A DNA stretch of 64,000 nucleotides, taken from the NCBI GenBank assembly GCA_951799425.1, contig OX637391.1, forward strand, positions 8,690,551 to 8,754,550. The letters run 5' to 3'. Source of the stretch: Ilex aquifolium (taxonomy: Eukaryota > Streptophyta > Magnoliopsida > Aquifoliales > Aquifoliaceae). Position numbers and translations under genes: made by a program. The notes beneath the pieces were generated by a model, which did no database searches, had not been told where the DNA came from, and worked only from the letters and a program-made list of their open reading frames with translations. Shown here one piece after another: positions 15,426 to 61,316 of the stretch (position 1 is its first letter; each line of letters starts with the position of its first letter).

Positions 15426-15557
15426 AGTTTTTGGCGCCGTTGCCGGGGAATTATTCTAGTAATTATTTCAATATTAGTTTCAATCAATTTGATCTTAGTT
15501 TAAACTTATTTAATTTTTTCTGTTTTAATTGTTTTCGCAAGCATTCTTGAATTTTGT

Positions 15558-21985: not shown

Positions 21986-22084
21986 AAAATTGAGTCATGG
22001 AGAAAAATTCCACTTCATTGCGCAATTCAAGTACATATACAAGCCATGGAACCCCCGAATATGGGGATAACCATATGGGAGGGG

Positions 22085-22185
22085 TTGATTATTGAGTTAT
22101 TGAGTTGAGTTGAAATATTAAATTATTGAGTTATTGAGTTGAGTTGAAATATTGAATTATTGAGTTGATTATTATTGAGTTTTGG
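22085..22185 (+). repeat. TTGAGTTATTGAGTTGAGTTGAAATAT tandem repeat
   Basis: Two long copies and partial copies of a ttattgagttgagttgaaat unit, grading into AT-rich sequence. Confidence 0.75.
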
Positions 22186-23184
22186 GATTAAAATTGAATC
22201 AAATATTAATATGTTAATATTTTTATTTGTAAAAAATGATATAATAAATTTATATTCAGATAATTAATCAAAAAATATTTTTATTGTCAACTCATCTAAT
22301 TCTAATGCTCTGTTTGTTGGTTGAAAAATTTATTAGTTGGTAATTAATCAAAACATTTTCTATCTTTTCAACTTATGTTAAAAACTCATTCATTCCTTTG
22401 TAATTCAACTTTTGTACGAAGTTGAATCAACTCATTGAAAAAAAATATAATAATAATTAAGATTACCTTTAAATTAAAATTGCATAACCTAAAATTTTCA
22501 TAAATTGTTTGAGAATTGGTTCATTGTTTTGTGTTAACTTAATTTGCTTCAATCTCACTTCTCTTACGTACTCATTCATTCATTCCTCATTCAGTCCTTT
22601 CTAATTCAACATTTTTACGAAATTGAAATTTTACTTTAAAAGAATATAATAATTCATATTAAGCATATTCTATGTCTCTCAATCTCAATCGAAGCAGTGT
22701 AGTTATGTCTCTTACTTATCAAGCAACACATTTTTTCTCAAAATAAGCATGTTGATTAATGCTATAAAGTTACTCCAGTATTGTCATTCTTCAGTTGGAT
22801 AGTCTTCATAATTGTAATAGAGTTGTAAATGTACGTCAATTACTGCCTTGTTAGCCAAAAAAATAGGTTACAATGTTTGCCTTCTTGATAACGTGTTTGA
22901 CTTCTGATTCAATACATGATAACATGTTACGAGATAACCTCATTTGGGGATTATTTTTTTCAAACTTCCATATAAAGGTTGGATCTCCATCTTTCTTAGT
23001 TTCTTACCAGTATACTTCATCCTTGTAGGTTTCTTAATTGATCAATTCTTCTAGGTCGCATGCAGTAGATTCACATGGGACTTTGATTAACTATTGATAT
23101 ATTATTCCTCAAGTATTAATCGTTTCTATCTATTCCCAGGTTCTTCTGAATTCAGAACTTATTCCACAATGGAAACAAATTGAA

Positions 23185-25891: not shown

Positions 25892-26147
25892 ATTGTATTT
25901 TGTTATTTTGTGAGCTTGATAAGTTGTCGTATGTTATAATAAATTGTGTATTAGACCTTACGATGTGCTTATATTGTAATATTTTGTTGGTACACTGGCT
26001 TGTATTTACATGTTTGTTGAAATGATATCATTATGATATGTTTGATGTTGGATGTTGGAAATGTTACCTTTATCAATTAATGATGGTGGATGTTTTCATC
26101 TTATTTTCAATTGTATTTTGTTTTTACAGATTCATTTAGTTCTTCGT

Positions 26148-29130: not shown

Positions 29131-29445
29131 TGTGGGACGTACTCCATTTTTTTCGTATTTTTTGTACAAAATTTTTGTCTATTATTGTTGTATATAAAAA
29201 CTCTTTGGGTTCATAGTTTCATATAATGTTATTTCATTACTGCCTTTAAGATTAGTTATCCAATACTCTAACCAACATTTCTTGAATAACATAACATAAA
29301 TTATAGATATTTAGATGGACAATACTAACTGAAGTAGTACACCATATTTCATAGAAACAAAATACAGGAACATATTACATAAATATACTGTAAACACAAG
29401 TACGATGACCGAAGTGTAAATGTTACAACACAGGAGTTGTATAAC
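29131..29445. other. Spacer between PMD gene and small minus-strand ORF
   Basis: AT-rich; likely the 3' UTR of the PMD gene and the 3' end of the opposing ORF. No feature recognised. Confidence 0.4.
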
Positions 29446-29451
29446 ACTTCT

Positions 29452-29946
29452 TCATGGGTCTTCATCTTCGTCAGACAGGTAATGATCAGAAATACATCCA
29501 TCTTCACCACTCAATTGGAAGCTTAAAATTGCTTCTTGCATCCTCCCTTTTGCAGTACGGTCGCTTGCAATACAGTGCAGGTTGTACCGATTAAAACGAA
29601 TTGTCATTCGATTGTTCTCAACTCGAATGCGAAACAATGCTTTCTCTAATTCTTGAGGAGTGGTAATAGGCATCGCAATGACAACTTGTCGAGGTCTTCT
29701 TATGTTGCAAGAACGTAAATGTAAGCTTAGATTTTCTCTTTCCGTCAAGTGATATTGTCATTCCGCCATCATTTTATTTCTAGCTGTTAGTGAATAGCGT
29801 AAGTGAGGATTCGTTGGGTAAAAGAACTCATCCTTTAAAGCCCAATGATAACCCAGAGCTTCAAACAGGGTTCTCGGACTAAAATTCATGGTTAAAGATG
29901 AATTATGTACATTGAACATTGTACATGGGTTCAAACTTATAGACAA
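29452..29946 (-). pseudogene. Small protein of unknown family, minus-strand member of an inverted pair
   Basis: A 164-codon frame starting MSISLNPCTMFNVHNSSL with a single in-frame TGA near 29758 after ARNKMMAE. I do not recognise the family. The C-terminal half (LSLHLRSCNIRRP, IRVENNRMTIRFNRYNLHCIASD, HYLSDEDEDP) matches the plus-strand ORF at 30631-31074 in order: ENNRM, IASD and an acidic YLSDE end are shared, as is the strand before a central MP. The two genes therefore look like divergent paralogues, transcribed away from a shared repeat-rich spacer. No zinc ligands, membrane segment or nuclear signal is obvious. A role as a MULE accessory protein is inferred only from position. Confidence 0.5.
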
Positions 29947-29989
29947 ATTATTTATGTGAGTATGCCAGTCTACAACCTAAATGAATGAC

Positions 29990-30560
29990 ATTACAACATT
30001 GTGTAGTCACACTCACTGACTGCACAATAATATTTAGTCACACTTACTAACATTGAACCAGTGTGTAGTAACACAGACTGACATTAAACCAGTGTTTAGT
30101 CACACTGACTCACATTGAACCAGTGTTTTGTCACACTAACTGACATTGAACTAGTGTTTAGTCACACTGACCCAGTGTGTAGTGACAATGACTGATAATG
30201 ATATAATTTTCAGTCATTGTAATTGTTTCTTGTTCAGCAACACATGTTAATGAAGACCCTGTACTGCACTTCAATGCATAAGTGTTTAGTCACAATCAAC
30301 ACCCTGTGACTATACAGTAGTTAACAACCAAAAACCCTAATACTGTTAAACATATCACAGACGTGAATCACTAGGAATCAGGATGAATCAGGTTTTTTTT
30401 TCCTTCAATGTAGTACACGTCTCAGTGTGCAGTCACAGTCACTGCATACTAGTGTCTGGTAAAGCTGGCAGGTAATAGTGTATAGTCACACTTACTGCAC
30501 ACTTTTTTTAAATGTTTAACCATCAACCCAAATATAGAGGTGACTACACACTACTGTAAT
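29990..30560. repeat. TAGTCACA-type repeat cluster between divergent ORFs
   Basis: About ten copies of a (gtgt)ttagtcacactgac word. Five or six lie in tandem at a spacing near 30 bp at 30000-30200, the rest more scattered and in both orientations (for example 30284, 30305, 30430, 30483, 30541). The cluster fills the shared upstream region of the two divergent small ORFs. Confidence 0.8.
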
Positions 30561-30630
30561 GCTGACAAATGCAATAACCACTATAAAAACATAATATTGG
30601 TGGTTGTGCATATCACATGTATTGCACATT

Positions 30631-31074
30631 ATGTCTACTTCAAGAGCACGAGCAGGTGATAACAGCCGTAGTCATGAACCAGTATGTTTATTACAAGAGC
30701 GAGATGATGATTACAAGAGTGAGAGATTTTCTGAACCAAATGAGTATTATGCTGGACTCTGTCGAGAGTGGACTTTTCGTGCTAATGAATCACAGTCATT
30801 ATGCATAGATCTGAGAGAACTTAGTATACCGGTGTCACATAGACTTTCAATTACTATGCCGCGAAGGAATAGAGTGAACTATGAAGTAGCAGTTAAACGT
30901 GTACGAAAGGAGAATAATAGAATGGTGTTGCCTAAGTACTGATATTATATGCTCCAAATAGCATCTGACATGGTAGCAACTACATTTAGCAGAGAATTGA
31001 CAGCTACTGAGCGATCTAATGTATTGTCTATTGAACAATACCTATCAGATGAGTATATGTCTGATGAAAATTAA
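30631..31074 (+). pseudogene. Small protein of unknown family, plus-strand member of the inverted pair
   Basis: Frame from MSTSRARAGDNSRSHEP to DEYMSDEN (stop at 31072), with one in-frame TGA at 30940. The second half is similar to the minus-strand ORF at 29452-29946: LSITMPRRN / VIAMPITTP, VRKENNRMVL / IRVENNRMTI, QIASDMVAT / CIASDRTAK, and an acidic YLSDE end. The N-terminal part is Arg/Ser/Glu-rich. I picked the second Met because similarity and charge pattern begin after it; an upstream in-frame Met lies at 30604. Function unknown. Confidence 0.5.
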
Positions 31075-31450
31075 CAAATATAATTAGTGTCCACCTTATT
31101 AAGCATATAACGTTTATGTCTATGTCCTATTTAATTTAATCAATATTGTGGTTTTATTAGTTTATTCAATGTGTTTTCATTTCTCAACTTTTTCATTGTC
31201 ACATCCTGTCATTGTCAAATCAGTTCTGAACTTTACAGTGTGATGTCCTATTTACTTTAATCAATCTCTTGGCTTTATCAGTCTATTCAGTGTGTTGTCA
31301 TATCCCAACTTTTTCATTGTCATTTTGCATCACTGTAAAATCAGTTCCAAACTTTGCAGTGTGATGTCCTTTCACTGCAATTTTAAATTGGCAAACTGAG
31401 CATATATATACTACCATTCACATTTGTGTAAATGACCACCACAAAACAAA

Positions 31451-31747
31451 ATGTATAGGAGCACATCACATGAAGGTTCTTCTTTACGCAAAGACCAAAA
31501 TAGTTCATCTTTGGTTAACAAACGTGAACGCTCAACAGATAGATCAACATTGCTAAACAAAGTTCTTTCTATTGAATCATATACTGATTCCAGTGGTGTA
31601 ACGTGGTATGGACGAAAGCGTGCATTCCGCAATGAGCCCATCGACCCTTATCACTCATTCGGTCAAGCTGGACATGTAATTGTTGGGCCTGCAACTGATT
31701 ATCCACCTCCAGGTGCTCATATCGAACCCACACTAAGATGGCGATAG
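31451..31747 (+). CDS. Hypothetical ORF, 98 residues
   Basis: Open frame MYRSTSHEGSSLRKDQNSS to PTLRWR, hydrophilic, with a central SGVTWYGRKRAFRNEPIDPYHSF. No family recognised. Further open stretches in other frames to about 32110, including an acidic LYDFSDLDDDASDTFIPSY near 32010-32060, suggest a longer decayed gene with frameshifts. It lies inside the MULE downstream of the inverted ORF pair. Confidence 0.3.
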   Translation: MYRSTSHEGSSLRKDQNSSSLVNKRERSTDRSTLLNKVLSIESYTDSSGVTWYGRKRAFRNEPIDPYHSFGQAGHVIVGPATDYPPPGAHIEPTLRWR

Positions 31748-33130: not shown

Positions 33131-33600
33131 TTTAAGACTTAAATGTGGCCCACATGATTTTTGGCACATGTGATATTTACTGATGACTAATTAATCGGTG
33201 AATTGGTTGGGTCAAGATAATGATAAGGTTCCCAATCCCAAACTAACTAGGTAACTGATGTTTTCTGATTGGTCAAAGAGAAGTAGTAGTTTCTGATATC
33301 CTACTTTGATGGGAAGTGGAGTTCATGTTGATCTAGAAAACCAGTCCTCTCTCTACCTATAAATGTGCACATGTCCATTGATTTGTGTATCTTACGTTAA
33401 AGGTTAGGAGAGAGAAACTGTGTTTTCAAGCTACACCAAAATACTGTTCTTCTTTTTCAAGAAACTAAAAGGTTTACATCAATGGCTTCAGGTATTTAAA
33501 TTATGATGTTTTAATTCCGCAATATGAGTATGTGAAAATCATGATTGTTCTAGATCTTGGAATTAGGATTTGATTATTATTTGATCAAATAAAGTTTACA
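33131..33600 (+). repeat. 5' LTR of the copia element
   Basis: 470 bp ending aataaagtttaca, with a TATA-like ctataaatgtgc near 33358 and the primer site two bases downstream. Confidence 0.94.
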
Positions 33601-34844
33601 TGTGGTATCAGATTCTGAGTAAAGAAATCTCGTGATTTTCCGTTAATTTTCATGTTATATCGCCTACTGTACCGAATTAATTGCGGGCTGAATTAATTGT
33701 TATTATATTGTCTCTGCCTGTTAAAAAAAATGAAACGTTCTTTCATTACGGGATGAAGCAATTCCTTCTGCCAATTTTTGTAAGAGATTCGTTCATTATG
33801 TTGGGCCGAATCTGCAAGTCTATTGATATGCAGTTACGTCACTCATAGTAGTAACGTGGAAGCATTGATTGTTTTTTATTTTTTGTCACTTGAATAAGAA
33901 AAGTTCTCTTATTTTGATCAAACCCCATGATGAAACCCATCACAGAAGGTGGAAATTCTCAGTTTGGTAGGAATTGTATGTTTTGACATTATCTGTCCTT
34001 ACTGTTTGATCATTAAATATTCGTCCAGAGAGTTACATATATATTTTGATATTGTATTTATGGACTCTTGCCAAACAGTAGCCATGCATGTTGATACATG
34101 TTATATCAAATTATGTTCATTTTATTATTGGCCACGAAAAGTGTTCTGATATATCATGATAGTTTAAATTATTTTCAGTCTAATAGCTTATGCAAAGTCA
34201 ATATCACGGTTTTGATACCTGAATTATGTTATAGTTTGGTAGTCACCAAAGTGACCCAACTAGAATGACTCATAGATATTAAATCATATAATTGATTTTA
34301 ACATCCATTATCTTGTGATATTAAAATAATTGTTTATGCAACGTCATTATTTTGATTTAATGCTTATATTATGATATAGTTTGGTAGCTGCCAAAGTGGC
34401 CTAACTAGAATGATTAATAAGTATTAAATCATATAATTGATATTTAATATCCATTACCGAGGTATTAAAATAATAACTTACAAATCGCAGTTTTTTAATC
34501 ATTTGGATATTAGGAATCGGCCCAAAGGTGCACCACTTTTCAAGTGATTAATTAACTGGAATAGGATAATTAGGCTATATTCATGATTGGTGGGTCCTGG
34601 ATACCCAAAGGTAACAGACCTACCTAATTATGGATGTATCATTAATTAGTCCTATTAGGTGAAGGGAATCACCTTAATGGTTAATATATTAGTATATTGT
34701 GATTACTACCCAAAGAAGAGTCACGATATGACTATTTATTGATTACAAGAGTATGTATTTTATTCTTACTCATGTTTGAATTGTTAGAAAACTCAAAACA
34801 CTAATGTAGTGAGCATTTAACTTATTGCAGCGTCTATTCCTGTT

Positions 34845-35627
34845 TTGTTGCATTCGCATGCTTCTTCTGTTTCGATGCTTAATGGACTAAATTTCTCTGA
34901 TTGGCGTGAACAAGTCCAGTTTCACCTAGGTGTTCTGGATCTTGATTTAGCACTACAAACTGAGAAACCTGCTGCTATTTCTGAGACAAGCAGAGCTGAT
35001 GAAGGAGCTTTCCATAAAGCTTGGGAAAGATCGAACAGATTAAGCCTTATGTTTATGCGGATGACCATGACAAGCAACATTAAGTCAACTCTTCCATATA
35101 AAGACATAACTGCAAAAGAATTTTTTGATATTGTGGAAGATCGTTTCCAAACTGCTGACAAGTCTCTTGCTGGGACATTAATGGCTGAGCTTACCACCAT
35201 GAAATTTGATGGTACACGTAGAATGCATGATCATGTCATCGAGATAACAAATGTAGCCGCTAAATTGAAGGCTCTAGGGATGGGTGTGGATGATTTCTTT
35301 CTGACACAGTTTATTCTAAACTCCTTGCCTCCTCAGTATGGTCCTTTTCAGATTCACTATAACACTATTAAGGATAAGTGGAATGTGAATGAATTGACCA
35401 ACATGCTTGTTCAAGAGGAGACGAGGCTTAATAAATTGGGAAATCATTCAGTTCATCTCGTTAGTCAAGGAGCAAAAAGAAAATGGAAGAAGCCTAAAGG
35501 TAAGAAGCATGGTCCACCCAAGAGTAATGATTCTACTCAAGTTACTCAGGCTTATAAGAAGGAAAAGGGTGATAGGTTTCACTTCTGTAAGAAGTTGGGG
35601 CACTTTCAGAAAGATTGCCATAAGTGA
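34845..35627 (+). pseudogene. copia gag part
   Basis: UBN2-type gag: LNGLNFSDWREQVQFHLGVLDLD near the start, a LAGTLMAELTTMKFDGTRRM helix region, and a C-terminal basic stretch followed by a degenerate knuckle (CKKLGHFQKDC). Typical length and order for copia gag. Part of a broken fossil. Confidence 0.9.
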
Positions 35628-36099
35628 AGGGCATGGTTCGAAAAGAAAGGTAAACATTTAGCTTTTGTATGTTTCGAATCAAATCTTACTGAAGTTCCTT
35701 CAAATACTTGGTGGATTGATTCTGGTGCTACTATTCATGTTTAAAATACGATGCAGGAATTCCTTACAATCTAGACCATAAATCCAAATGAGAAATTCAT
35801 ATTCATGGGTAACCGGGTCAAAGCTCCAGTTGAAGCTATTAGGAATTTTCGTTTATTTCTAGATATTGGTTATCATTTGGATTTATTTCAGACACTTTAT
35901 GTTCCTTCTATTTCTCGAAAATTAGTTTCTTTATCTAGACTTGATGTTGATGGATATTCCTTTAAATTTGGTAATAAGTGTGTTAGTTTGTTTAAGAATA
36001 CCTCTTTCATTGGTTATGGTATTCTACATGATGGTTTATACAAATTGAAACTTGATGACCTATTTGCTAAGTCTCTTCTAACCCTGCATCATAATGTTG

Positions 36100-37330
36100 G
36101 AACCAAACGTAGCTTGATGAATGAAAATTCTTCCAACTTGTGGCACAAACAAATGGGTCATATATCCAAAGAAAGGTTAGAGAGATTGGTGATGGATGGG
36201 ATTCTTCCGAATCTAGATTTCACTGATCTCGGAGTGTGTGTGGATTGTATTAAGGGAAAACAAACCAAACACACCAAGAAAGGTGCCACAAGAAGTAATG
36301 AACTCCTTGAAATTATCTATACATACATTTGTGGACCTTTTGACACTCCATCAATTGGTGGAGAAAAATATTTTATTACCTTTATAGATGATTTTTCACG
36401 TTTTGGTTATATCTATTTATTGCATGAAAATTCTCAGTCAGTGGATGCCCTTGAGGTGTACATTACTGAGATTGAAAGACAGCTAGATAGAAAGGTGAAA
36501 GTTATCAGATCAGATAGAGGTGGTGAATATTATGGAAGATATGATGGTTTAGGACAATGTCCTGGTCCGTTTGCTAAACTCCTTGAAAGTATGGCATTTG
36601 TGCACAATACATTATGCCTGGTACGCCACAGCAGAATGATGTAGCTAAAAAGCGTAACCGTACTTTAATGGATATGGTTAGGAGCATGTTAAGTAATTCC
36701 TCATTACCCTTATCTTTGTGGATGGAAGCTCTTAAGACCTCTGTCTATTTATTAAACCGGGTTCCTAGTAAGGCAGTTCCAAAGACTCCTTTTGAAATGT
36801 GGATAGGAAGGAAACCGAGTTTAAGACACCTTCATGTTTGGGGTTGTCCAGTAGAGGTTAGGATTTATAATCCGCATGAAAATAAATTGGATTTTAGAAC
36901 GATTAGCTGTTACTTTATTGGTTACCCAGAAAAATCCAAAGGACATAGGTTTTATTGTCCTACCCATAGTACAAGAATTGTTGAAACCGGCAATGCCAGA
37001 TTCATTGAGGATGGTGAAACCAGTGGGAGTGATAAATCACGAAATGTGATTATTGAAGAAGTTAGCGAAAAAGTTCCATCACCCATAACTTCTAATGATA
37101 TTGTTGTTCCTACAGTTGTTGTACAATATGACAACGTTGAACAACAATTAAATAATCAACCACTCCATAATGAGGTTGTTACCATTGAACTGATAGTAGA
37201 AGAATCACAAGGAGTAGCATTAATACGGTCTCAAAGAGAAAGAAGACTAGCTATTCCGGATAATTATGTGATATATCTACAAGAATCTGACTTTGATATA
37301 GGGACAAGTAAAGATCCGGTTTCATTTTAA
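36100..37330 (+). pseudogene. copia GAG-pre-integrase and integrase part
   Basis: LWHKQMGHISKERLERL and a CVDCIKGKQTKHTKKG zinc region precede the integrase core (FITFIDDFSRFGYIYLL, VIRSDRGGEYYG). They are followed by a RTLMDMVRSMLSNSSLPLSLW stretch and the HLHVWGCPVEVRIYNPHENKLD C-terminal part. Order and motifs are those of copia. Broken. Confidence 0.88.
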
Positions 37331-37569
37331 CAAGCCATAGAAAGTGATGATTATGCTACATGGATTGATGCTATGAATGATGAATTGAAATCAGTGGAAC
37401 AGAATGAAGTCTAGGATCTAGTTGAATTGCCTGAAGGATTTAAGAGAGTCGGTGTAAATAGGTCTTTAAGACCAAACGCGACTCCAATGGCAATATCGAG
37501 CAACATAAAGCTAGACTTGTGGCCAAAGTTTTCACTCATAAAGGAGACATTGATTACAAAGGAATATAT

Positions 37570-37960
37570 GCTCACATTTAGGAGGTCTTATCATCTAGAG
37601 GTTATTGGATACTCAGATTCGGATTTTGCCGGATGTATAGATAGTAGAAAGTCCACTTTTGGTTATTTGTTCCTTCTAGCTGGAGGGGCAATCTCATGGA
37701 AAAGTGCAAAGAAAAATGTCATAGCTTCATCTACAATGGAAGCTGAATTTGTGGCATGCTTTGAGGCTACAGTTCATGGATTGTGGTTGCGGAATTTTAT
37801 CTCAGGACTTGGAATTGTCGACACTATTGCCAAGCCATTGAGAATTTATTGTGATAACTCCATAGCAGTGTTTTTCTCCAAGAACAAAAAGTATTCTAAA
37901 GGTGCCAAACACATGGAATTGAAATACTTTGCCGTCAAGGAGGAAGTTCAAAAGAAATGA
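37570..37960 (+). pseudogene. copia RNase H part
   Basis: Contains GYSDSDFAGCIDSRKSTFGY, AISWKSAKKNVIASSTMEAEF and IYCDNSIAVFFSKN, the standard copia RNase H motifs. Part of the broken fossil. Confidence 0.9.
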
Positions 37961-38464
37961 GTGTCCATAGAGCACATTAGCACAGAGCTCATGTTTGCAG
38001 ATCTATTAAAAAAAGGATTATCACCAAAGATATTTAAGGAACATGTTAACAGAATGAGTCTTGAATATAACCCATGATGTTGGATTATTTGTTACATTTA
38101 TTTACTAGACACTTTTAAATTTAGATGTGTTTTATGATATTTCATGTTTTCATTATGTATGTACATATGTTAGAATTGGATGAATGATAACAGGAGTAGC
38201 CTTTGGCATAAGGCATTATTGTTGGACCTCTTTTATATACACTTCTCACTTATAGATCATGTTAGACAAGTTACTAGTGTTGTGGTACATGGAAGAGACT
38301 ATGTCGTGTTAATGATGTACGACCGCCATGACTCGCATCAATGATTTGTTTAATTGTGGTATTATGATGACCAAATTAAGGAGTGACGGATTGGATTTAA
38401 TGCGCGCGTATGTTAACTTTACTAGACTCAATTGTAAGATAATCATATGAGCCAAGTGGGAGAA

Positions 38465-38937
38465 TGTAAAACTTAAATGTGGCCCACATGATTTTTGGCA
38501 CATGTGATATTTACTGATGACTAATTAATCGGTGAATTGGTTGGGTCAAGATAGTGATAAGGTTCGTAATCCCAAACTAACCAAGTAACTAATGTTTTCT
38601 TATTGGTCAAAGAGAAGTAGTAGTTTCCTGATATCCTACTTTGATAGGAAGTGGAGTTCATGATGATCTAGGAAACCGGTCCTCTCTCTACCTATAAATG
38701 TGCACATGCCCCATTGATTTGTATATCTTACGTTAAAGGTTAGGAGAGAGAAACTGTGTTTTTAAGCTACACCAAAATATTGTTCTTCTTGTTCAAGAAA
38801 CTAAAAGGTTTACATCAATGGCTTTCTGGTATTTAAATTATGATGTTTTAATTCCGCAATATGAGTATGTGAAATTCATGATTGTTCTAGATCTTGGAAT
38901 TAGGATTTGATTATTATTTGATCAAATAAAGTTTACA
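38465..38937 (+). repeat. 3' LTR of the copia element
   Basis: 473 bp, tgtaaaacttaaatg...aaagtttaca, followed by the acaac target duplication. Confidence 0.94.
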
Positions 38938-39831: not shown

Positions 39832-41134
39832 CTACGTCATAGAACTCTGAATCTATTCACGCACACTCGCATACACCCAAGTTCTCTCCTTCTCTCTGAT
39901 ATTCTCCCAGTAGCTTGCACACACAGACACACACTCTCTTATCTCTTATCCCTCTCTCTCTCTCTCTCTCTTCACGTTGATTATCCAACAGTGATAGTTA
40001 AGGGCGTGGTGGATTAATAAAATTGGGTGTCTCTTGGATTTCCTTTTTGTCGCGGTCTTCTTTTGTCAAATTTTCGCTACAAATGAATGGTAGATATGTG
40101 GTGTATTTCATGGTGATTGGGTTATGGTATGGTTGATTTCTTATTGTTTTCCATCCTTTTTGTGCAATCAAAAATTAGAAATCTGAAATCCTTGATCTCA
40201 CTGTTGCCAGATATCATCAATGGATTTGGCATTGCAGCACTTATATGGGATCATTGACTGATAAGTTTTTCAGAGAGACCTCGATCAATGTGTTGGACTT
40301 TACTGGTAAAATTCATTGGATGATCATTTATTTTGTTGGAGATGACTATGTTTAGTGGAGAAATAGTAATGATTTTCAGGTAAATTTTCTCTTACTTTCG
40401 CACCAGACTCAATTAATTTCGCTTAGATAGAATTTGGAATATATATGATTTGAGTGTTATCTACTTTGGTGGATGCATGTCGAATTTGAGTATGAATTTA
40501 CTGGAAAGGAAACAAAAATAGTGCCAAGGTTGAGAGCATCAGTGGGTTTGTCGTCCAAGAGCGCAAGATTCTGTTGTGTTTTCTCTGTTTTTTCTTTGAA
40601 TAATAATTTATATTGTGATTCTTGGTTTTATTTCAAATTAGGGATCTAGAGGTCGAAGGTGGCAACTGACTCTATGGTTTAAATCAAGTTATTTAATTTA
40701 ACATAGATTATGTGAATCGATTCTCACAAATTCAAGGGTAGTGAAGTTCGCGTAGTAAACTTTTTTATATTCTCCTTCATTTGATATTATTTGATAGTGA
40801 ATTTTACTGTATAGTTTTCATTATTAGATACTATTTGTTCAAGTGATATACTAAAAGGGTCCGTTAAGCAACCTAGAAAATGGGTTTTTGAATTTCTTTC
40901 AATTCTTATGTTTGACTGAATATTTTCATATGCCTTGGGATTTTCAAGGGTACCAGTGGATGTTAAACAGAGAAATAATAGTGGTGGTGGCACTGGTGGT
41001 GTTATTAAGATAAGGTCTACTGATCATGTTTTTATTTAGTTTTGACTATATCATTGGGCTCCTCTCTTGTAAGGTAAACCTATAAGTCTCTATCTCTTCA
41101 CTTGGTTTTTTTTTTTTGGCACATAAAAAATTAG
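39832..41134. other. Interval without a gene between LINE copy 2 and the second MULE
   Basis: CT-rich then AT-rich DNA that looks like spliced leader and intron sequence, with no ORF longer than chance. An agtggtggtggcactggtgg patch lies near 40980. No feature supported beyond the microsatellites. Confidence 0.4.
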
Positions 41135-41205
41135 GAAATTTGGAGGTCGGTCCCCATAGATGGACTTATTTGGAGATAAGTCCGGAAATGAATCTTATTT
41201 GGTTT
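41135..41205 (+). repeat. Left terminal inverted repeat of the second MULE
   Basis: Inverted match to 50053-50123: gaaa(t/a)ttgg(a/g)ggt, tcccc, gacttattt, gaga, aagtccgg and a following ctta. Confidence 0.8.
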
Positions 41206-42551
41206 TAAGTCCACTTTTTGCTATGTTTACCGTTGTACCCCTACCCTATCAAAAAATACTTAACGTCGTTTGCCTCTCCATCTTCTTCACAGACTTACAC
41301 ACAGAGACATCGATTCCTTCGAAGGCGCCTTCAAATTCGGCGATTTTCTTCCATTCCAACTGCTTTCCTTCTCCGATATCCAGTAACCGGTGTTTCAAAA
41401 CCCCAACCGACTCCATTGATATTCAAAATTCAAAACCCATTACATACTAAAACAAAAGCGAATCGGTTTTACCATTCAAGTTCCCTGTGGACACCATTGG
41501 CGTATTTTCAGATAACTCTTGGCATTCTCTCGGATTCTTGACAAAGGGTTAAGGTATGTGATTTGTAGGGTTTCTAAACAAAGTTCTACATAATATAATG
41601 CCCAAACTCACTATTGATGTTACAGTAGATTTAATGTTCGTAGATTTTTACAGTAAATTTGTTTTTACATATCTTTGATGTTTATTGATTTTACAGTAAC
41701 TTTGATGTTCATAGATTTTATAGTAAAATTTTAATTTCATTGAGTTTTTAGTAAATCTTCAGCATTGATTTTATAGTAAGTTTGATGTTCTTAGTTTTGG
41801 ATTCCTAAAGTAAAAAATGAGATTCATTATCACGAATTAAAAGTGGGATTGATTTCTATTTTGTTGATTTCTTTGTTGCTACAGACAATCGATTAGTAAT
41901 TGATTTTGGGGATGTGAAAATACATCATGTTACTGTGTGTTAACTACAATATGGGTTTCATAACTTCAATGTTTTGCTATTTGTGCTATTGGTTGAGATT
42001 CCTAATTCAAGTGTCAGTCACTGGTAGCTAATTGATGCGTTAGTAGTGCAAATCTTTGAAGCTTTGAAAAGTGTCGTAGTTTCTCTGTGTGTTTTTTGGG
42101 AAAAATTGATGATATTGTGGATTTTAATATGAATTGATGTTACTGTGAATTGATGTTACTGTGTATGTGTTAGTGATCACAACCCTTTGATTTTTCTTGG
42201 AAAATTAGAGGTATATGTTAAATCATATATCTCTTAAGCTTTGCATTTGGTAGTGTAAGCGAAAATTGATGTTACTTGTGTGTTACTATTTGAAATGCTT
42301 GCAATCTTCATTTTGCAATCTTCAATTTAGCATATTTCCTTCTAACTAAGATTCAGTTAATAGATTAATGTTACTATGATCATGTTACTAAGATCTTGTT
42401 ACTGTGTTTACATCAGCCATTTTGGTGTTACTGTTCATGTTACAATGAGCACATTTTTTTTGTTAATTGTTGTATATCCATTAAGTTAAGCGAATTTGTG
42501 TCATGTTATTATATGCTATATGGAGAAGATAATTTACTGTAATGTTACAGG
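41206..42551 (+). other. Leader region of the second MULE, rich in ATGTTACT words
   Basis: No convincing exon (the short frames at 41218-41541 are Ser/Pro/Thr-rich and unrecognised). From 41600 to the start codon at 42552 there are about a dozen atgttac(t) or tgttact words, plus related tttacagtaa words. Probably promoter or leader. Confidence 0.6.
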
Positions 42552-43494
42552 TTGATGGCTCCAAAAACATCTTCATTTCACCAGTTTAGGTCTAACTTGC
42601 TGCCAGTTGTGAATGTTATTAGTGACATAAACATCAAGGATGTTCACAAAGAACAGTTGAAGAGAACATCATTTTGGTATTTGTATCACACAATATCAAC
42701 ATCTGAAGTGGATAAGGAATGGTTCAAGAAGAACGAAAAATGTATTGTGGACATAATTACCACGTTTCATGTTGAAACATCCAGATTTAGAATTGGTGGA
42801 AAACATTTAAAGATACGGAAGACTGATGTATCCCTCATTTTTGGTATAGAAGATGGTGTGGATCCAATTGTTTCCCCCCAAAGTGCAAAGAAAATGTCAC
42901 CATTTGTAAGGAGGAGATTCAATAACACCCAAAGATTGAATGCACCAATTATTAAAAGTAGATTGGAGGATGCTGCAATGGGTGATGGTAAGGAAGATTG
43001 TGAAGATTTTGCTAGGTTATTCTCTTTATATGTCTTAGTGACATTACTGATTACAAATATGGGGCAAACAATTGGATGAGGGTATGTCTCATACATTGAA
43101 AATTTGGATGAAATCAAAAGATATTACTGGTGTCAAGCAACAATTGATGCAGTGATTAATTCTATACGGTTGAAGGTTGATACACCGAGTGCAGTAACCG
43201 GTTGTGTACTACTGTTACCTGTAAGTTTTTTATTGCTAATTTTTATGAATTATTTTTTATAATTATTAAACATTAACTGTTCTAACTAATGTAACTAAAT
43301 CTAATTTGCAGTATTGGATATGTGAACACACATATCTTGTTGTGGCCGACAATGCGGATGCATTCCTAAGGTGGATGAAATGGAACTTAAGAAAACTTTG
43401 GGCGGCTCTCTCACAAAACACACTGTCCGACATAGCATCTGATCAGGTGTTATTAAAAAAATTTGTTTTTTCGTATTTCTATTAATTTTGACAA

Positions 43495-43695
43495 TTGGTA
43501 AATTGCATGACGATGTTACTATATCAAATTGATGTTACTATCGATGATATTAGTAGGAAAATGAATGTTACCTATGAATGTTACTGTAGTATAAATGGAT
43601 GTTACTATGGCTGTTACTGTGTAATTCACAGTCATTTGATTCAATTAAAAGGTGAACAATTATTAGATACATTTTTTAACGTTACTAATGATGTT
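43495..43695 (+). repeat. ATGTTACT word cluster in an intron
   Basis: Seven gttact words in 200 bp (for example 43513, 43532, 43565, 43578, 43599), between the exon donor at 43447 and the next open stretch at about 43701. Confidence 0.85.
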
Positions 43696-45164
43696 GTCAG
43701 GTTGTCCGAATGAGACTTAAGAAAACACTTGCTGAGAAGAGGTTAATGAAAGGAAATCGAAAAAATTCCAAGAATGTACAACATTGTGTGGAGGTTCCAC
43801 AATAAAGCACTCTTGCCAGCAAGAGTGCTTTAAATTCAGACTTGGAATATGGAGGTGATCTAGCTGTTGATGATCATATTGTGGTTAATGAAGATGTCTA
43901 TGAAAGTGATGATGCAGTACATGTTCCTACAAATGATTATCCTGTCTAAAAGGAGACTCAAAACGTCCAACCATTTGATGTGTTTGTTGATGTGGTCATC
44001 CGAGAATTTGCATTCATGGAACCAGATGAAGTGGTAACTCAAGAGAAAAGTCACAATAGCCTTCCCATGACAATGAATGTGAGTTCGGATTGATTGTTGA
44101 AAATGAGGTGCAAAAATTTACTATCCAATGCTGACTATTGAGAATGAAGCACTTCGAACGGTCATCAAGAATATTGGGGGCAACCAAAGGGAGGAAGATT
44201 TAAAAGGGATTGAAGAATATGCGATGAAACTAGTTGACAGGGACAACCAAATTTCAGAATTGAAAGTTTTAGTTGATCTCTTGGAGAAAAACAAAGAAAC
44301 ACAAGAAGATCAAATTAAAACACTAACATCAAGGGTGTCCAAGTTAGAAGAAGAGAACAATTCCCTGCATGATGTTGTTGTTGATATGGTTGTTCATGCC
44401 GTTACTCAAAGGTACCCACGAACTCCACCAAAACCACAGCCCACCAAAGGTGCAGAACAAACATCGATAGTGAGAAAAATCAAAAGGAAAGAAAGAAAAA
44501 GAAAGAGAGATGAAGATTTTGAGTATAGTAGGAAAAAACAGGGAGAAAAGAATAAATTGAAACAAATTGAAATCCATGATCAAGTTGACAAAATTAAAGG
44601 GAAGGAAAAGATATCAGATAGCTACATTGATGTTGATGATTTGGATATTAAAATGTCAAGTGAAAAGCCAGAAAGTAAAAGAGTTGAAGCTCGAAAATGG
44701 AAAGCCTGCAAGAAATTACAAGAAATTATCACCGGATGTGTATGATAAATTGGTTCAAATGCATAAGGCTGAGGGAAAAAAGTAAGTAACTTAATGCCCC
44801 ATTATGAAACACCTTATATATTATTGTTTATTCTCTATTTTATTAACATCTATTGTTTTTAATTAAAAGGGCAACTTTATGGAGTGAAAAAAAATATGGA
44901 AATATCATTGATGTTGATGGTGTTTTGAAGTTCATGGATGGTGAAAAGCTGCACAACAATGTAATGTACCATGCGTCTTGACAATTTAAACAAATTATGG
45001 AATACTTGAATATTTTTTATTTAACAGAATCGTGTTATCACTCAGGTGATTGATTGTTGGGGAGAAATACTGATGGAGGAAGCAAATTGCAGATGTTTCT
45101 TTTTCAACAATCTGTGTTGGGTGAGTTTGTTTAATCTATGTTGAATTCTCGATTGCTGGATTTT

Positions 45165-45495
45165 TGAAATAGTAAGATGAGTATAGTAACTTGCATGTTA
45201 CTATAGTACCACACATACAGTAACATTCGTGTTACTATGAATGACACTATTGTAACATTGTTGTGTTTGTGTTACTATAGTAACATGAATGTCAATAGTC
45301 TGTGCTGGGTGAGATTGTGTAATATACATTGAATTCTTGATTACTAGAATATTGAATCAGTAACATTGGGTATAGTAACATGCATGTTACTATAGTAACA
45401 CAAAAACAGTAATAGTCGTGTTACTATGAATATAATTATTGTAACAATGTTGTGTCTGTGTTAATATAGTAACATGAATGTTACTGTATAACAAA
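45165..45495 (+). repeat. ATGTTACT/AGTAACAT cluster in the intron between Ulp1 exons
   Basis: About 15 words in 330 bp in both orientations, three of them joined head to head as gttactatagtaaca (near 45193, 45270, 45384). Bounded by the donor after AACAATCTGTGTTGG (45120) and the acceptor near 45570. The block itself is an imperfect tandem duplication of about 180 bp. Confidence 0.88.
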
Positions 45496-46306
45496 ACAGT
45501 TGTGTAATTGTTCTATATTGGCATTGTTCAATCTCTAAAATTTATGGGTTACTACTGATTAACATGTAGACATTCGTAACGGTTGGGGGACAAGAACACT
45601 CACGGCAGGTTGAGATAGACAACAATTTGAACATGGGGTAGGCTTGGCCATTCCTAGTGTTTCCAATGAATTCAGATGCACAGCGCACCCAGCCCATGCC
45701 ATTCCACTGGACCTTACTTGTACTAGATACAGAAGCAGGGGAATGGATCCACTACAACTCTTTGAAACCGCGAAGTGGAATTATGGACAAGTTTTTTGAG
45801 GATGCAAAAATATTGGTAAGTTAATATAATATGAACAACTCATATTGTTTGATGTATTTTCATTGTACAACATTAACAACATTTTATTATGGCAGAAAGA
45901 CTACATGGAGTCGGCATCCAAAGAAGGACAAAGGAAGTCATTGAAGACAAAGGATGAAATTGTTGTCAACACACAAGACATCAAATGTCCAATATCTTCA
46001 TATGAGAAATGCCCTCAACAACGAGCTGACACGTATGTAAATAATAGAAATAGTGTACATTTAAGTACATTAAATTAAATATCATTAACGAAAGTACATG
46101 AATGTAGGATCGACTGTGGATTGTACGTGTGTTACTTAATGCAGCAGCTTACTCGTGGACAGCAAATAGAAGAGAAATTGAAACCACCGCAACTTAATGC
46201 TCTACGGATCGATATGATGTCTAACTTCATAAACCATAGGAATGCATGGACTGTTGAAGACTACAAGACAAGATCAAGATTGAGAAAGAGATACCAAGAC
46301 AAATAG

Positions 46307-47014
46307 GCAGTACTAATGTGTGGGGTAACTATTCATTGTTAGGGAAATTGCAGGATTTGTTAGGCTAATTGGTGGATAGGTTATAAATTGGTTGTAATTG
46401 TTGGGTGGCTGATATTTGGTTAGAAATTGGTTGTAATTGTTGAGTGGTTGATATTTGGTTAGAAATCGATTGTAATTGTTGGCAAATTGAGATTTGATTG
46501 TAATGGAATGTTTGTGGAACAAAAGGAAACTCTGTCCACATTGTTATTGAAATAGTAATCCAAACAGTAACATGTACAAACATTGTTCCAGAATACAAAT
46601 TCTATATGATTCAAGAATGCTGAAATGAAGTTGTTAGTGGAATGTGAATGTTGTTATCCACATGGCTGGGTATGGTTTGTATAATTTCTTTGTAAAACAG
46701 TTGAAAACTATTCATGCTTGATTATCCAAACAAAGTAACATGTGTAGCAAATTGATTTAAATTCCTCCAAATTAAGCAATCACACAAAATCCTTGTTAAA
46801 AAGTAACATTGGTTCATCGTCACATGAACATTAAATAGTAACATTGGAGTCACATTAACAGTAACATGAAACTTATATTGACCATGCAATGATAATATTA
46901 CACTATTAACTTATCATACTGTATAACCCATGATATTCCCAATGTGTGACATGATATACACAAATAGCTGAAAAAAATAAAGTAACATCTTATTCCAAAA
47001 AAACATACGGAATA
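46307..47014. repeat. Convergent intergenic spacer with AGTAACAT words and a 39-bp tandem repeat
   Basis: Three copies of an aaattggttgtaattgttg...gatatttggttag unit at 46386-46482. From 46560 to 46995 there are seven agtaacat-type words. The spacer separates the 3' ends of the Ulp1-like gene and the transposase. Confidence 0.8.
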
Positions 47015-49232
47015 TTACAATGGCTCGTTACAAGTCTTCTTATTATGACTACCTAAACGGCCACAACGGCCACAATGAATTTTCCTAACAGGCTCACCTT
47101 TAGAACTAAATCTACGCTTCCTTGGACGGTCTGGTTGTTTTTTTGACAATGGTGGCAACATATCAATGTCAACCGCAGAAAAGTCAGGACGACCGAGTGT
47201 TGGAATAGGGTGTATAGGCTCAGAATAACACAGTCTGTAAGTAGTAACCTGATAAAAGTAATCAACAAACTCATCGATGTCCTTCCACTCTTTTGAATTG
47301 CAGCCACAGCATGGGCACATGGTAAACCGTTGATCTGCCATTGGTGGCATGAGCACGTGCAACTCTCAATGTCAACAGTCACTGAAGGATGTGAATTAAC
47401 TTTGAAAACATGACTTGATGACACCCTAACAAACTAGGAACGACACTCAGTGAAAGCAGCTTGAAGTTTGGTTTCAATATTTTGACAATTAATGTCGTTC
47501 CACTGTGACGATGCATTCAAGCGGCACCCCATTTGGTTCATGATCTGCCCCCTTATTGTGTCAATCATGCTGGTGACAGGTAGGTGACGTGACTTTGTGA
47601 TCCAAGCATTGAATGACTCCGCCGCATTTGAAGACATCTCCCTATAACGTTTCCCCTCAAACGGAAGGTTTTCCAAGAACTTATCAGCAACGGCTCCTCC
47701 TTCACGTCGAAACGCATCAAGCTTTTCATTGAAAAATGCATCTGTCGGAGCATAAGCACACAATGTAAACAAAAAAATCATACACATGGGTAAAGCGACC
47801 CCCACTATACTTATCTCTCAGATTTGCTTTTAGGTATTGTAGGCAGAAAGAATGGTGCACCGTTGGGAACACCTTAGGCATTGCTTCCATCAAACCAACG
47901 TTGCAATCGGACATAATGGTTAGGTCCCTAGTATTATCAACAATCTCATCTAATTGTTTTAAAAACCAACGCCAATTGCACTCATTTTCCGAATCAACAA
48001 CAGCAAAAGCCACGGGGAACAAACCTGCAATACATATACCAACACCAACAGTAACATCAAAAAATAGTAACATACAAGCAAAATATTAAAATGTAACAGC
48101 AAAATAAAGTTAGTATCACCAAATTAACCCAACAAAAAAAATCACCTTGGTTGCCATCTTTTGCAGTTGCAGGCAAAATAATGCATTTATACATTCCCTT
48201 TAAAAATGTACCATCAATGAACAATATGAGTCGACAATAGTTAAATCCATGTATACATGCCTTAAATGACATGAACAACCTACTAAAACGCTGCATGTCC
48301 GAATCACCTTCCAACACAAAATGACAACCGGGATTGCTTTCATTAGCAGCCTGTACATACCACGTAATTGTTGGTATAACAACGAATGATCCCCAAACAG
48401 TATATCCCTTACTTTTTCGACACCCATCCAAGCTTGATCATACGATATAGTCAACCCATAATCTGTATGAAACATACTTTTCACATCAACTAGTCGTGTG
48501 TCAGGTTTTTGTCTGATGTTGTCAACAATAAGACCTCCAACCAAATTAGAAGTTAATCTTTTGTTCTTTATCGTACGTGAAGCCACACCACATGTGTGCT
48601 CATTGTTTAATTTCTTAATATAAAACCATCCATTTATCCGCTGGAGTGTAGCAACAACAAACCACTCACACCCAGCAGAATATTTCATGGCACATTCAAC
48701 CTTCACCTTTGTTTTTTTCATTCTTCACATAATTAAACTGAAAATCAACCTCGATTGCATATTTGCATAAAGCATTCCGAAAATCAGCTACTCCTCCCTC
48801 AAACTTCTGACCAACCTCTACTATTCCATTCGACCATCCATCAGTCAACAAAACCTTCTCGCTGTGAGAACAAAAACGAGGGAGAAGATCATCCTCGCGA
48901 CCAAAAGGGTCAAGAGTTAATTCAGAGCTTTCCACTACTTCCCCACCCTCAAAATCACAAACCTCATTCCCTTTAAGACCAACAGTAACATCAACAAAAT
49001 TCAGTTGAACAGATCGTGCAATTAAAAACATGTTTCTCACATCATGATCATTATGCAAAGCACAATTTAGATGTCCGGGAATAGTGTACGACAAGGCAAC
49101 ACAATTGACACTCAAACCATTCCAATAGTCACAAACACCATGTAACACATCATCAATTGTGAAATTCATTGAAATTCTTAGCACAACAGTCTTAGAAGAA
49201 TACTTGCAACAAACCAATATGTTATCCTCCAT
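47015..49232 (-). pseudogene. mudrA-type transposase of the second MULE
   Basis: Start MEDNILVCCKYSSKTVVLR (PB1-like N terminus) at 49232, then an acidic region, and a MuDR zinc/DNA-binding segment (KVKVECAMKYSAGCEWFV and NEHTCGVASRTIKNKRLTS). The DDE domain follows with D in LFIDGTFLKGMYKC, D in IMSDCNVGL and E in SSNAAESFNAW. The SWIM finger (CTCSCHQWQINGLPCAHAV) and C-terminal knuckle (CGRCGRLGSHNKKTC) end the protein. An intron at about 48028-48146 contains AGTAACAT words; a second short one is likely at about 47745-47805. Three frameshifts (about 48710 in an A-run, 48360, 47290) and one in-frame stop (about 47410) break it, but the three catalytic residues are kept. It differs strongly from the transposase at 23185, so the two MULEs are separate families. 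Confidence 0.88.
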
Positions 49233-50052
49233 CTATTATAACAAAAAAAAAAAAAAAGGAAAACCTATAAAAAAAACAAACATAATCAATTCTAATTCCA
49301 AAAAATCACTACCAGTAACATGAAAAAAAAAAACTTAGAACCTAATTACAAAAAAAAAAACATCGGTAAAGAACGTTGCAATACAAGTTCCGGATAGTGA
49401 CATTGAATTTCGGCAATAACAAAGGAAAATAACGAAAAATAATCAATTCTAACTCCAATAAAATCACGAACATTAACATTAAAAAAAAAAACTCCAGTGA
49501 AAAATTGTTGCAATACGAATTTCAGGTAAGGAATATAGAATTTCTGGCGAATGACTATCAATTAACGCTAAAAATGTTCAAACCATCACTGTTTTCCATA
49601 ATTATGTAAAGCAGCAAATTACAATGAAAAAACCTCAGAATATAATAATGTTTCGGCACATACAGGAATGAAGAACCAGCAGGTTGCAGTAGAATCACAC
49701 AAAAAATCGGAACTCCAGATGCTGCTTGTATCGCATTCGGTCGTCCCCCTGAACAGAAAAGTATGTTGCTCAAACGCTATACCAGACAATGTAATTATGC
49801 TTGATTCATAATTTGAATTTGAATTTGATTTTTTTAAAGGAATATTCTGATCTGATTTTATCGTAATTCAAGCAAAAAATTATAATATATACTATTTCCA
49901 TAAAAAACTGATCAGTTGGTTACCATATATATCTCAAACCTCTAACTTATGGCTTTCCATAATTGACCAAATTTAACACCGTTAGGGGTATTTTTGAGAT
50001 TAAAATAAAAAGATGGACTTAAGTCAGTATATATAATTTTAAACATGGACTT
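49233..50052 (-). other. Transposase upstream region
   Basis: A-rich DNA with an agtaacatg word at 49315 and two near-repeats of an aaaacatcggtaaagaacgttgcaat-like unit (about 49330-49400 and 49480-49530). No gene recognised. Presumably the promoter side of the minus-strand transposase. Confidence 0.4.
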
Positions 50053-50123
50053 AGTCCCTTATAAGTTTTCTTACCGGACTCATCTCTAAATAAGTATATC
50101 TAGGGGGACTCACCCCCAATTTT
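50053..50123 (-). repeat. Right terminal inverted repeat of the second MULE
   Basis: Inverse partner of 41135-41205, ending cacccccaattttc at 50123. Confidence 0.8.
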
Positions 50124-50559
50124 CACTAAAAAAAATTCGCTTTTGATACAGTACATCTTCATTAGCGGCAAAACGAGGACCTATTGTGGGAACCCAGGGA
50201 AAGAAACAAAAGTCGGTAAGTTCAAAATTTTGAACTGGGTAGTGTATTGTCAATAAAAATATTCTTTTTGATATGATTATTAAAAAAGAATATTAGTGGG
50301 TTTCTTTTTGACAGATCTTTCTTAATTATTATTTTCGTGGGTTTTTTATGTTTGGTCTATTTGTTACACTGATGTTTGTTCCCAACTACACCACTATTGT
50401 CTAACAGTCATTCTGGATAAGGGCTTATTGAGTTAGATATTGAAAGCATTCTCAAAGTTACTAATTGTTTTCCCTTCCCGATATATCAAGCGGTGGCCTT
50501 TCTTCTTCTTTTTATTTTTTAAGCTCACCAACCAAGGAATGAACAATTGCCATAATTAA
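50124..50559. other. Interval without a recognised feature
   Basis: AT-rich DNA between the MULE and the Tourist-like element. No gene or repeat seen. Confidence 0.4.
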
Positions 50560-58984: not shown

Positions 58985-60321
58985 TCAGATGGTTACAGTC
59001 TCCATGAACTCTGAATCATCCCCCAAAGCTCTCAATGTTTCCGGCAGAAGACAAACCTCAATGTCTATACTCCCTTCTTCCACAGCCGGAAAAATTGTTA
59101 TCTTCCCGTCGGACTTGTTCGCGCTACCGCTTCGTACGGCCACCGGTTTGCCCCAACCGAAGTCATTCCCGTACACGTTGTGCCGAGGCGAGCTACTCGC
59201 GACCAATGAAGTATTCAGCTGAGTACCTATCTTCACCAGCATAGGGTTCTTCACCCAATTCTCGTAAAAATTCATTACTTCTTCATGGGTTTGCAGAGCA
59301 ATCATATTGTTCATTTGCAGAGCCGCCCTTCCCAGTCCTTGTTCGATCAGCTCGCCGGCGGTAGTGGCCACGACCCCAGAGTGAATGGCGTTCCCGAAAT
59401 ACCCCTCCGGCAGAGGCGGAAGCAACCGTTGTCTTGTTCCTATTAGAAATATAAATATAGCTTCTCGGTCTCCGGCGACATTGCGACAGCGTGTGACAGA
59501 TCGCCAAACGTGAGCCAAAAGGGCTTGAAGAGAGGAGATTCGATCGGTACCCATTTCGGCGTTGGCTTGTGCTTTGAGTTTGCCGATAATCTGTTTGCTA
59601 AAATGAAAAACCCGTTCTTGGGTTGGTGGTCGAACGAATGTGTCAACCAGTTTTTCGTCACAAAAAGGAGTAGGAATGGGAAAATCGATACCATCAGGAA
59701 ACCAACGTTCAAGAACAGGAGGTTTTGACAGATGACGATTCTGACCACGAGAGATCTCAGACCATGAATTAAAGAACAGCCAGAAAGATGTCCCATCTGC
59801 TACGGAGTGGTTCATGGTGCACCCAATGAAGAAGCCATCAATGAGCTCTGTTACCTGGACTGCTACCAAAGGATTCGTAACGCCTTCATGGTTGAGAACT
59901 CCATTCATGGTGAAGAAGGAATGAACTATACCAGGAACGTACAATGGCTTGAGGATATCGGAGACAGTAAGGTCGTTCGCAGTGGCGTGAGTGAACTGAA
60001 CTCCCGCGTCGTTGCAGTCGATGAAGAAGGAAGTAGTGTTGTCGGTGTGTTTAGTGACGGCGAGGCGGCCGGCGAGGGGTGGGAAGTAGTCTAGGGTGCG
60101 AGAGAGTGAGGCTTTCAGATGATCAATGAGAGTCATGTCTTCTGTTAGTTCTTTTTCGTTTTGAGGTTGGGGTTTGGGGAGGAAGAGACCCTTTTGGATT
60201 GGGCCAAGTGCAAGGGGCTGGAGGTCCCATGGTGTCAACTCAATCCTCTGAGTTGAGTCGTCACGACCTTCTGATCTCGCCGGTCGAATTGTACATGTAG
60301 AGATGACGCGAACTTCTTCCA

Positions 60322-60322
<1 letters not shown>
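58985..60322 (-). CDS. BAHD (HXXXD-type) acyltransferase, At3g50280-like
   Basis: Single-exon, intact 445-residue protein that would transfer an acyl group from acyl-CoA to an alcohol or amine in the cytosol; the substrate cannot be told from sequence. The start MEEVRVISTCTIRPA at 60322 matches family N termini. An upstream in-frame ATG at 60370 would add 16 residues (VCVCV, RERER) coded by a microsatellite and is rejected. Motifs: LTPWDLQPLALGPIQKGLLF-type substrate region, PLAGRL (about 82-87), the catalytic HSVAD (His172, Asp176), LQALLAHVWRS, EGYFGNAI, and the structural DFGWGKP (387-393). Length and motif order are typical of BAHD enzymes, closest in memory to Arabidopsis At3g50280/EPS1-type genes. 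A hAT-like MITE ends 170 bp beyond the stop codon. No breaks seen; probably functional. Confidence 0.95.

Positions 60323-60366
<44 letters not shown>
60323..60366 (-). repeat. (TC)n(AC)n compound microsatellite in the BAHD 5' UTR
   Basis: About 13 tc units followed by ten ac units immediately upstream of the start codon. On the gene strand this is (GT)n(GA)n in the leader. Pyrimidine/purine repeats in leaders are common in plants. Confidence 0.93.
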
Positions 60367-60370
60367 GCAA

Positions 60371-61316
60371 AGTTCTACGCTTGGAGAAATGATGGCTGCC
60401 TGGTTGTGAAGTGAAATAGAACTTACAAATGAATAGAAATCGGATTTGCTAAAACAAATTAATTATATATTATCTTTTATTAAAAAAAAAAAAAAAGAAT
60501 TGAAGCAAACCATCACTACCCTTGAATCCTTTGAATTTACAGCAACAGCAGATGATTTTCTTGAAGCAACAATCGATACAACCTCTCAGTGATATATGGT
60601 GGAGAAAAGAGACAGAAGAGAGAGAATAAAAGAACAAGAGATGTATAAGATGGTGGAGAACATAAATAGAATAGATAGAATAAAATACAAGAGAAAATGG
60701 ATTGAAAAAGAGTAATTGAAAAAATCAGAGAAAATAGAAATAATTGGATGAAAGAGATAGGATAGACTATCAAAATTTAAATAATATATAAGAGAGAGAA
60801 ATCTAAATAAGAGATGAGAGAGAAAGAGAGGGAGGGGAATCTAAATAAGAGACGGAAAAGATATGAACAGAAAAGAGATGAAAGAAAAGAAAAGAAAAGA
60901 AAAGAGATGAAAGAAAAGAAAATATAGAAAAATAATTGGATAGAAGAGAGAGTAGAGGGAGAAAAGAATCGAAGAAGGAGAGGTGAGACAGATAGAAGGA
61001 TGAAAAATAGTGGAAAGAGAGAGACGAAGAATAAATAAAGTAATAGAAATAAGAGTCTTCTTGTCGTTAAAAATATAATATAAAAAATAATTATTGTGGA
61101 CCACCCAACTCATATGATTCAAGCACACAACCCAATTCTTCATTTTAACTATTTAAAATATATTTAAATATTATAACGTTCAAGACCCAACCAGGAAAAA
61201 CATAGGAAAAGCATCTTAAAAGAACTAGTAATGACATATATAAATGAACAAAAAAAATGGCATATATTAAATGGCATTACTTTAACGTATATATATAATA
61301 GTAAAAGTGGAATCCT

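Follow-up and report, generated by a model that had tools for sequence, protein, structure and literature searches.

Why should the non-coding DNA of a single transposon be filled with one short word that is missing from the DNA around it? The question is raised by an element at positions 41135-50123 of a 64,000-nucleotide stretch of the Ilex aquifolium genome (contig OX637391.1, positions 8,690,551 to 8,754,550; hereafter the window), which by its ends and encoded domains is a Mu-like transposon, or Mu-like element (MULE), with imperfect terminal inverted repeats and an accessory gene convergent with the transposase gene. A first-pass annotation had proposed that the element is saturated with an 8-bp word which its own accessory protein, or that of an intact relative, recognises in the manner of the VANC anti-silencing proteins of Arabidopsis. 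Our analysis confirmed that the word occurs as described and that its occurrence is stronger than was first claimed. What follows is an account of the word, of its placement, and of the proteins and processes that might make use of it.

A repeated word in one element

The 8-mer AGTAACAT/ATGTTACT occurs 28 times inside the element and not once in the remaining 55 kb of the window, and in the ranking of 8-mers for the element against all other DNA of the window it comes first. The shorter form ATGTTAC/GTAACAT, of which at least 30 copies had been counted by eye in the first-pass annotation, is present 33 times against 12 in the other 55 kb, and the core TGTTACT/AGTAACA 37 times against five. Could such numbers arise from the composition of the element? 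With the element as training sequence, Markov models were used to generate 200 sequences per order, in which the 8-mer reached means of 0.70, 0.78, 2.42 and 7.07 and maxima of 3, 4, 7 and 14 at orders 1, 2, 3 and 4, respectively; none of the four orders came near the observed 28. Order 5 did, with a mean of 18.2 and a maximum of 32, because a model of that order has learned the word itself. As a control from the window, the best non-trivial 8-mer was taken in each of 23 overlapping sliding 9-kb segments. The best-word score was 48.0 in the segment at 40001-48989, from ACAGTAAC, a piece of the 10-mer described below (AGTAACAT scores 32.4 there), and at most 15.7 in all 15 segments clear of the element. 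Where a segment overlaps the element only in part, the score was between 11.6 and 15.8, since copies beyond the segment's edges count against the word. An equal frequency in flanking DNA had been set against the claim at the outset; the word is absent from the rest of the window.

When the 37 cores were aligned, an A was found at position -2 in 32 of them, C or T at -1 in 32, and T or C directly after the core in 35. The full word is AYAGTAACAY, all 27 copies of which in the window belong to the element, so the 8-bp word was real and its length had been understated; YAGTAACAY is found 30 times inside and twice outside. Across the 25 sites outside a duplicated intron, information per position ranges from 0.50 to 2.28 bits within the 10-mer and is at most 0.43 bits beyond it. 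When the 37 sites were clustered by single linkage at 55% flank identity, 29 clusters resulted. As most flanks are unrelated and information is concentrated in the 10-mer, it is therefore the word itself that recurs and not a longer repeat. Forms with one mismatch are also enriched, at 4.72 per kb in the non-coding DNA of the element versus 0.38 per kb outside it, a pattern consistent with slow decay of the word or with variants that are tolerated.

Where the word sits in the element

The features of the element against which the word has to be placed are the following (window coordinates).

41131 to 41270, + strand: imperfect left terminal inverted repeat (aligns locally with 49975-50129 in reverse complement)
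41555 to 42550, + strand: accessory-gene leader, probably a single intron in the 5' untranslated region (splice-like ends AAG/GTATGT ... TTACAG/G); nine AGTAACA cores, all TGTTACT on the sense strand of the accessory gene
42555 to 46306, + strand: accessory gene, broken (profile matches, stops and frame breaks; exon limits are our reading)
43447 to 43700, + strand: further intron of the accessory gene; five cores, all sense, partly within 33-34-bp tandem repeats
45104 to 45292 and 45292 to 45481, + strand: tandem duplication, mostly intronic (190-bp copies, 84% identical)
46307 to 47017, - strand: spacer of the convergent genes; six cores, all transposase-sense
47018 to 49232, - strand: MULE transposase gene, broken (profile matches to DBD_Tnp_Mut, the MULE domain and the SWIM zinc finger)
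48029 to 48144, - strand: intron of the transposase gene; two cores, sense direction
49314 to 49321, + strand: AGTAACAT upstream of the transposase start, one core, TGTTACT on the transposase sense strand
49975 to 50129, - strand: right terminal inverted repeat, imperfect (local alignment with the left repeat)

No target-site duplication was clearly readable by eye, both flanks being A-rich. Our own gene models divide the element into 4,750 bp of coding and 4,239 bp of non-coding DNA, and by these models 27 of the 28 8-mer copies are non-coding (6.37 per kb, versus 0.21 per kb of coding DNA), as are 26 of the 27 copies of the 10-mer (6.13 versus 0.21 per kb, and 0 in the rest of the window) and 35 of the 37 cores, which are spread over about 7.4 kb. 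The near-restriction to non-coding DNA had been described in the first-pass annotation, the positions listed there were correct, and one more copy of the 8-mer, at 48984, lies inside a transposase exon. This copy and a core at 46130 are the two exonic cores, and a further 12 cores belong to the duplicated intron.

Was a functionless word simply multiplied by tandem duplication and slippage? Support for such a mutational by-product can be found in the tandem repeats of the element, which lie at 41659-41790, 42130-42163, 42368-42403, 43512-43620 and 45104-45481. However, many word sites lie outside any tandem repeat, the 29 flank clusters show that most neighbourhoods of the word are unrelated, nearly all cores keep to non-coding DNA over the length given above, and a separate 39-bp tandem repeat directly after the accessory gene (46379-46482, 2.7 copies) is without any copy, all of which makes this the least probable of the explanations that we weighed. 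The first of these repeats, at 41659-41790, is a degenerate 27-bp array of five copies whose unit contains the near-miss ACAGTAACTT; it is perhaps a decayed or nascent array of sites.

The placement of the word also bears on two explanations in which it is bound by a protein of another kind. Plant transposon proteins that bind repeated short words are known, TnpA of En/Spm being an example, and the transposase here has a DNA-binding domain profile, so the copies could be sites for the transposase or for a protein of the subterminal-repeat type. Against this, neither inverted repeat contains a copy of ATGTTAC/GTAACAT, the nearest lying inward of the left repeat by about 350 bp and of the right by about 650 bp, and the cores are densest close to the element's middle (45195-45485); we consider the explanation improbable. 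Alternatively, the word could be the site of a host transcription factor that gives the element its expression: it is sharp and short with degenerate edges, as such sites are, and its TAAC core resembles MYB sites. That the 10-mer has no copy in the surrounding 55 kb, and that the copies are spread over introns and spacer with a single one upstream of the transposase, make a host factor a similarly poor candidate.

What may read the word

The transposase is well supported by profile searches, in which DBD_Tnp_Mut (PF03108, E 4.7e-7), the MULE domain (PF10551, E 2.8e-11) and the SWIM zinc finger (PF04434, E 4.9e-10) all exceeded their Pfam cut-offs, with joined pieces giving E 1.4e-18 for the MULE domain and 3.2e-12 for DBD_Tnp_Mut; the element had been correctly recognised as a MULE. 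The accessory protein, which the first-pass annotation had called a DUF1985/Ulp1-type protein, bore out the second half of that label. Its C-terminus (about 45573-46306) matches Ulp1/Peptidase_C48 at E 1e-7 (32.5 bits, cut-off 20.7) when the pieces are joined and read through; a single piece alone gives E 0.071, under the cut-off. Within this region, the stretch from HW to HYNSL (45705-45764) carries an Asn at what we take to be the position of the catalytic Asp of Ulp1 proteases, and this may mean that the protease is inactive or may be a product of decay. The N-terminus (42555-43220 and 43312-43446) matches the plant mobile domain (PMD) at E 2.8e-4 with its pieces read through, a score of 20.6 bits that is below the cut-off of 34.9; no PMD match was obtained for exon 1 alone, nor is one listed for a 611-residue query. 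The middle of the protein (about 43701-44742) is coiled-coil-like and basic. Neither exon 1 nor the joined N-terminal part matched a solved structure, and an AlphaFold prediction of exon 1 alone had a mean pLDDT (predicted local distance difference test) of 35.5. Stops or frame breaks interrupt both genes, so neither protein is likely to be made from this copy.

What, then, is the word for? The reading we prefer, with a probability of roughly 0.6, is that the non-coding DNA of the element is an array of AYAGTAACAY sites targeted by a protein of the element's own family that binds DNA sequence-specifically, in an anti-silencing system like that of the VANC proteins. The binding protein would most likely be the accessory protein with its PMD-like and Ulp1 regions. 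If so, the accessory protein of an intact family member would bind AYAGTAACAY and, once bound, would remove silencing marks from the copies that carry the word, by analogy with VANC21 in Arabidopsis; the present copy would be at most a responder to protein made elsewhere, because its own genes are broken.

We liken the element to a VANC target array because its non-coding DNA is filled with a sharp word, as is that of VANDAL21 with YAGTATTAY, the VANC21 word, which the excerpts of PMC5735166 place in introns and in intergenic and terminal non-coding regions. There the VANC21 sites are scarce in exons, often in tandem repeats and evolving through them (PMC5735166), for which reason we count the tandem duplication in the intron towards the same reading. 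The enrichment of one-mismatch forms is counted likewise, because a decaying array would show them, as is the Ulp1 gene convergent with the transposase, because this is the layout of Kaonashi MULEs (KI-MULEs), in which the Ulp1 gene is reverse-oriented to mudrA (PMC2528002), and because VANC genes with Ulp1 act on their own elements according to a review (PMC13317346, citing Sasaki 2022). On the same side are the restriction of the 10-mer to the element and nearly to its non-coding DNA, the unrelated flanks, the lack of a comparable word in the 15 segments clear of the element, those over a second MULE of the window included, and the resemblance of the word to that of VANC21 discussed below. 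In these respects (a MULE, a convergent Ulp1 gene and a sharp non-coding word) the interpretation of the first-pass annotation is supported; its DUF1985 component is not.

Several observations nevertheless weigh against a VANC-like target array. The first is direction: outside the duplicated intron, the 23 non-coding cores all carry TGTTACT on the sense strand of their assigned gene, at a probability of about 7e-7 given local base composition, in a test that assigned the spacer cores to the transposase, used a direction rule and an assignment chosen after the data were seen, and left out the two exonic cores and the 12 of the duplicated intron. That the bias is due to base composition alone was rejected at that value, with the same post hoc rule and spacer assignment. 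Both exonic cores are also TGTTACT in the sense direction, and the bias may point to a role in transcripts; such a bias is not reported for VANC targets in the excerpts of PMC5735166. Does the word then act in RNA, as a sense-strand intron or untranslated-region signal for the splicing, stability or export of element transcripts? Most cores do lie in introns or in the probable 5' untranslated-region intron. However, the 12 cores of the duplicated intron (45195-45485) lie six on each strand, five neighbours on opposite strands are spaced at exactly 10 bp, and a palindromic site is present at 45371-45394; the six spacer cores were given to the transposase after the fact; and no gene or element in the other 55 kb, where splicing is needed as well, contains the 10-mer. 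We regard an RNA signal as unlikely, if marginally less so than a transposase or host-factor site.

The remaining points against a VANC-like target array concern spacing, protein, kinship and the word itself. Helical phasing of all sites was not significant (p 0.33, 0.25 and 0.18 for three distance limits), the five 10-bp neighbour pairs all lying within the one duplicated intron. DUF1985 (PF09331), although its model was among those searched, was not reported by HMMER, subject to its filters, for the accessory protein, a broken gene searched without a positive control. The element is the sole copy examined, and three protein queries gave no usable relative: the MULE-domain query found one locus among viral contigs, a 14-residue match that we judged to be chance, exon 1 found none among the same contigs, and the Ulp1 piece none among viral or genome contigs, neither collection being of plants. 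Finally, the word resembles that of VANC21 in that both begin YAGTA and end AY, agree at 7 of 9 positions and have a C/T ambiguity at the same two ends, but this likeness is a hint only, because 3.0-4.5% of random 10-mers match as well (8-9% if the words of VANC6 are allowed).

More tentatively, we suggest a form of anti-silencing beyond the DUF1985-containing VANCs, in which a PMD-like/Ulp1 protein of a MULE with inverted repeats would read AYAGTAACAY at sites that keep a fixed direction relative to the genes; we think this possible, though on balance doubtful.

The window contains a second, broken MULE (about 23098-29223, + strand) with DBD_Tnp_Mut, SWIM and a clear PMD (E 3.5e-30) in the same direction as its transposase; by blastp, the accessory protein reaches only E 0.11 against this PMD. 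The three best words of the segments over the second MULE (20001-28989 and 22501-31489) have only four or five copies each, and because they lack a comparable word, not every PMD-bearing MULE has one. The window also has pieces of two retrotransposons on the + strand. One (14530-20744; gag at 15504-16433, protease at 16791-17957), which we label Gypsy-like, lies within a pair of 903-bp direct repeats that are 96.7% identical and are probably long terminal repeats. The other (33133-38937; gag_pre-integrs and integrase core at 35775-36641), which appears Copia-like, lies within a direct repeat pair of 95% identity. A long open frame on the - strand (58991-60448), with a Transferase family match (PF02458, E 3.6e-81), is probably a host acyltransferase gene, presumably of the BAHD type.

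Comparison with known systems

How far, then, does the element agree with systems already described? With VANDAL21 (Hiun) and VANC21 it shares the Mu-like framework and a short word that lies in introns and intergenic DNA, is found little in exons and is partly tandem (PMC5735166, in excerpt). It differs in that the word is YAGTAACAY and not YAGTATTAY, which has one copy in the element and one outside, and in that its accessory protein has a Ulp1 domain, not described for VANC21 in those excerpts, and no recognisable DUF1985. The logic is also shared with VANC6 of VANDAL6, whose different word is AGTTGTMC (PMC5735166), but AGTTGTCC/AGTTGTAC has no copy in the element and eight in the rest of the window. 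Membership in the VANC system is not shown, because no DUF1985 match was obtained and the element is enriched in neither of the two Arabidopsis words.

The Sasaki study of 2022 (EMBO J) on VANC diversity in eudicots reportedly found that VANC proteins gain and lose DUF1985, and the VANC words in it are said to show helical periodicity. We found no description of AYAGTAACAY in the available portions of the literature, the VANC words of that study being outside this scope; they may include related ones. A literature search for the exact words listed one paper, on a coronavirus.

The first VANDALs had terminal inverted repeats that were absent or short and degenerate. The imperfect repeats of the present element are about 140-155 bp long, and those of the VANDAL clade of Dupeyron 2019 span 46-174 bp, with a PMD and/or DUF in half of its members (PMC6446971, in excerpt); the repeats and the PMD-like domain predicted here would fit that clade. 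With KI-MULEs the element shares the Ulp1 gene convergent with the transposase, but KI-MULEs lack inverted repeats; Ulp1 in inverted-repeat MULEs is known from melon and grapevine, for which a target word is not described in the excerpts of PMC2528002. PMD-carrying MULEs offer a further comparison, since a PMD antisense to the transposase is tabulated for several MULE groups (PMC6446971) and PMD-C has been captured by MULEs in grasses and Amborella (PMC5418596); here the PMD match, part of one protein with Ulp1, falls short of the Pfam cut-off, and a target word is not described for those elements in the same excerpts. Anti-silencing by a captured PMD has so far been speculation (PMC5418596 for MULEs, PMC8616336 for transposons generally), and no target sequence is named in the available parts of either paper.

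The word of the Ilex element is sharp and testable, and the accessory protein of this MULE has Ulp1 and no recognisable DUF1985. If that protein does bind the word, self-recognition through repeated words would extend further among Mu-like transposons than is implied by the two Arabidopsis words, and a further sequence-addressed demethylation tool would be at hand. The logic of word-based self-recognition is already known; what sets the Ilex element apart from both Arabidopsis systems, as these are described in the excerpts of PMC5735166, is the absence of a recognisable DUF1985, the direction of its sites and the word itself.

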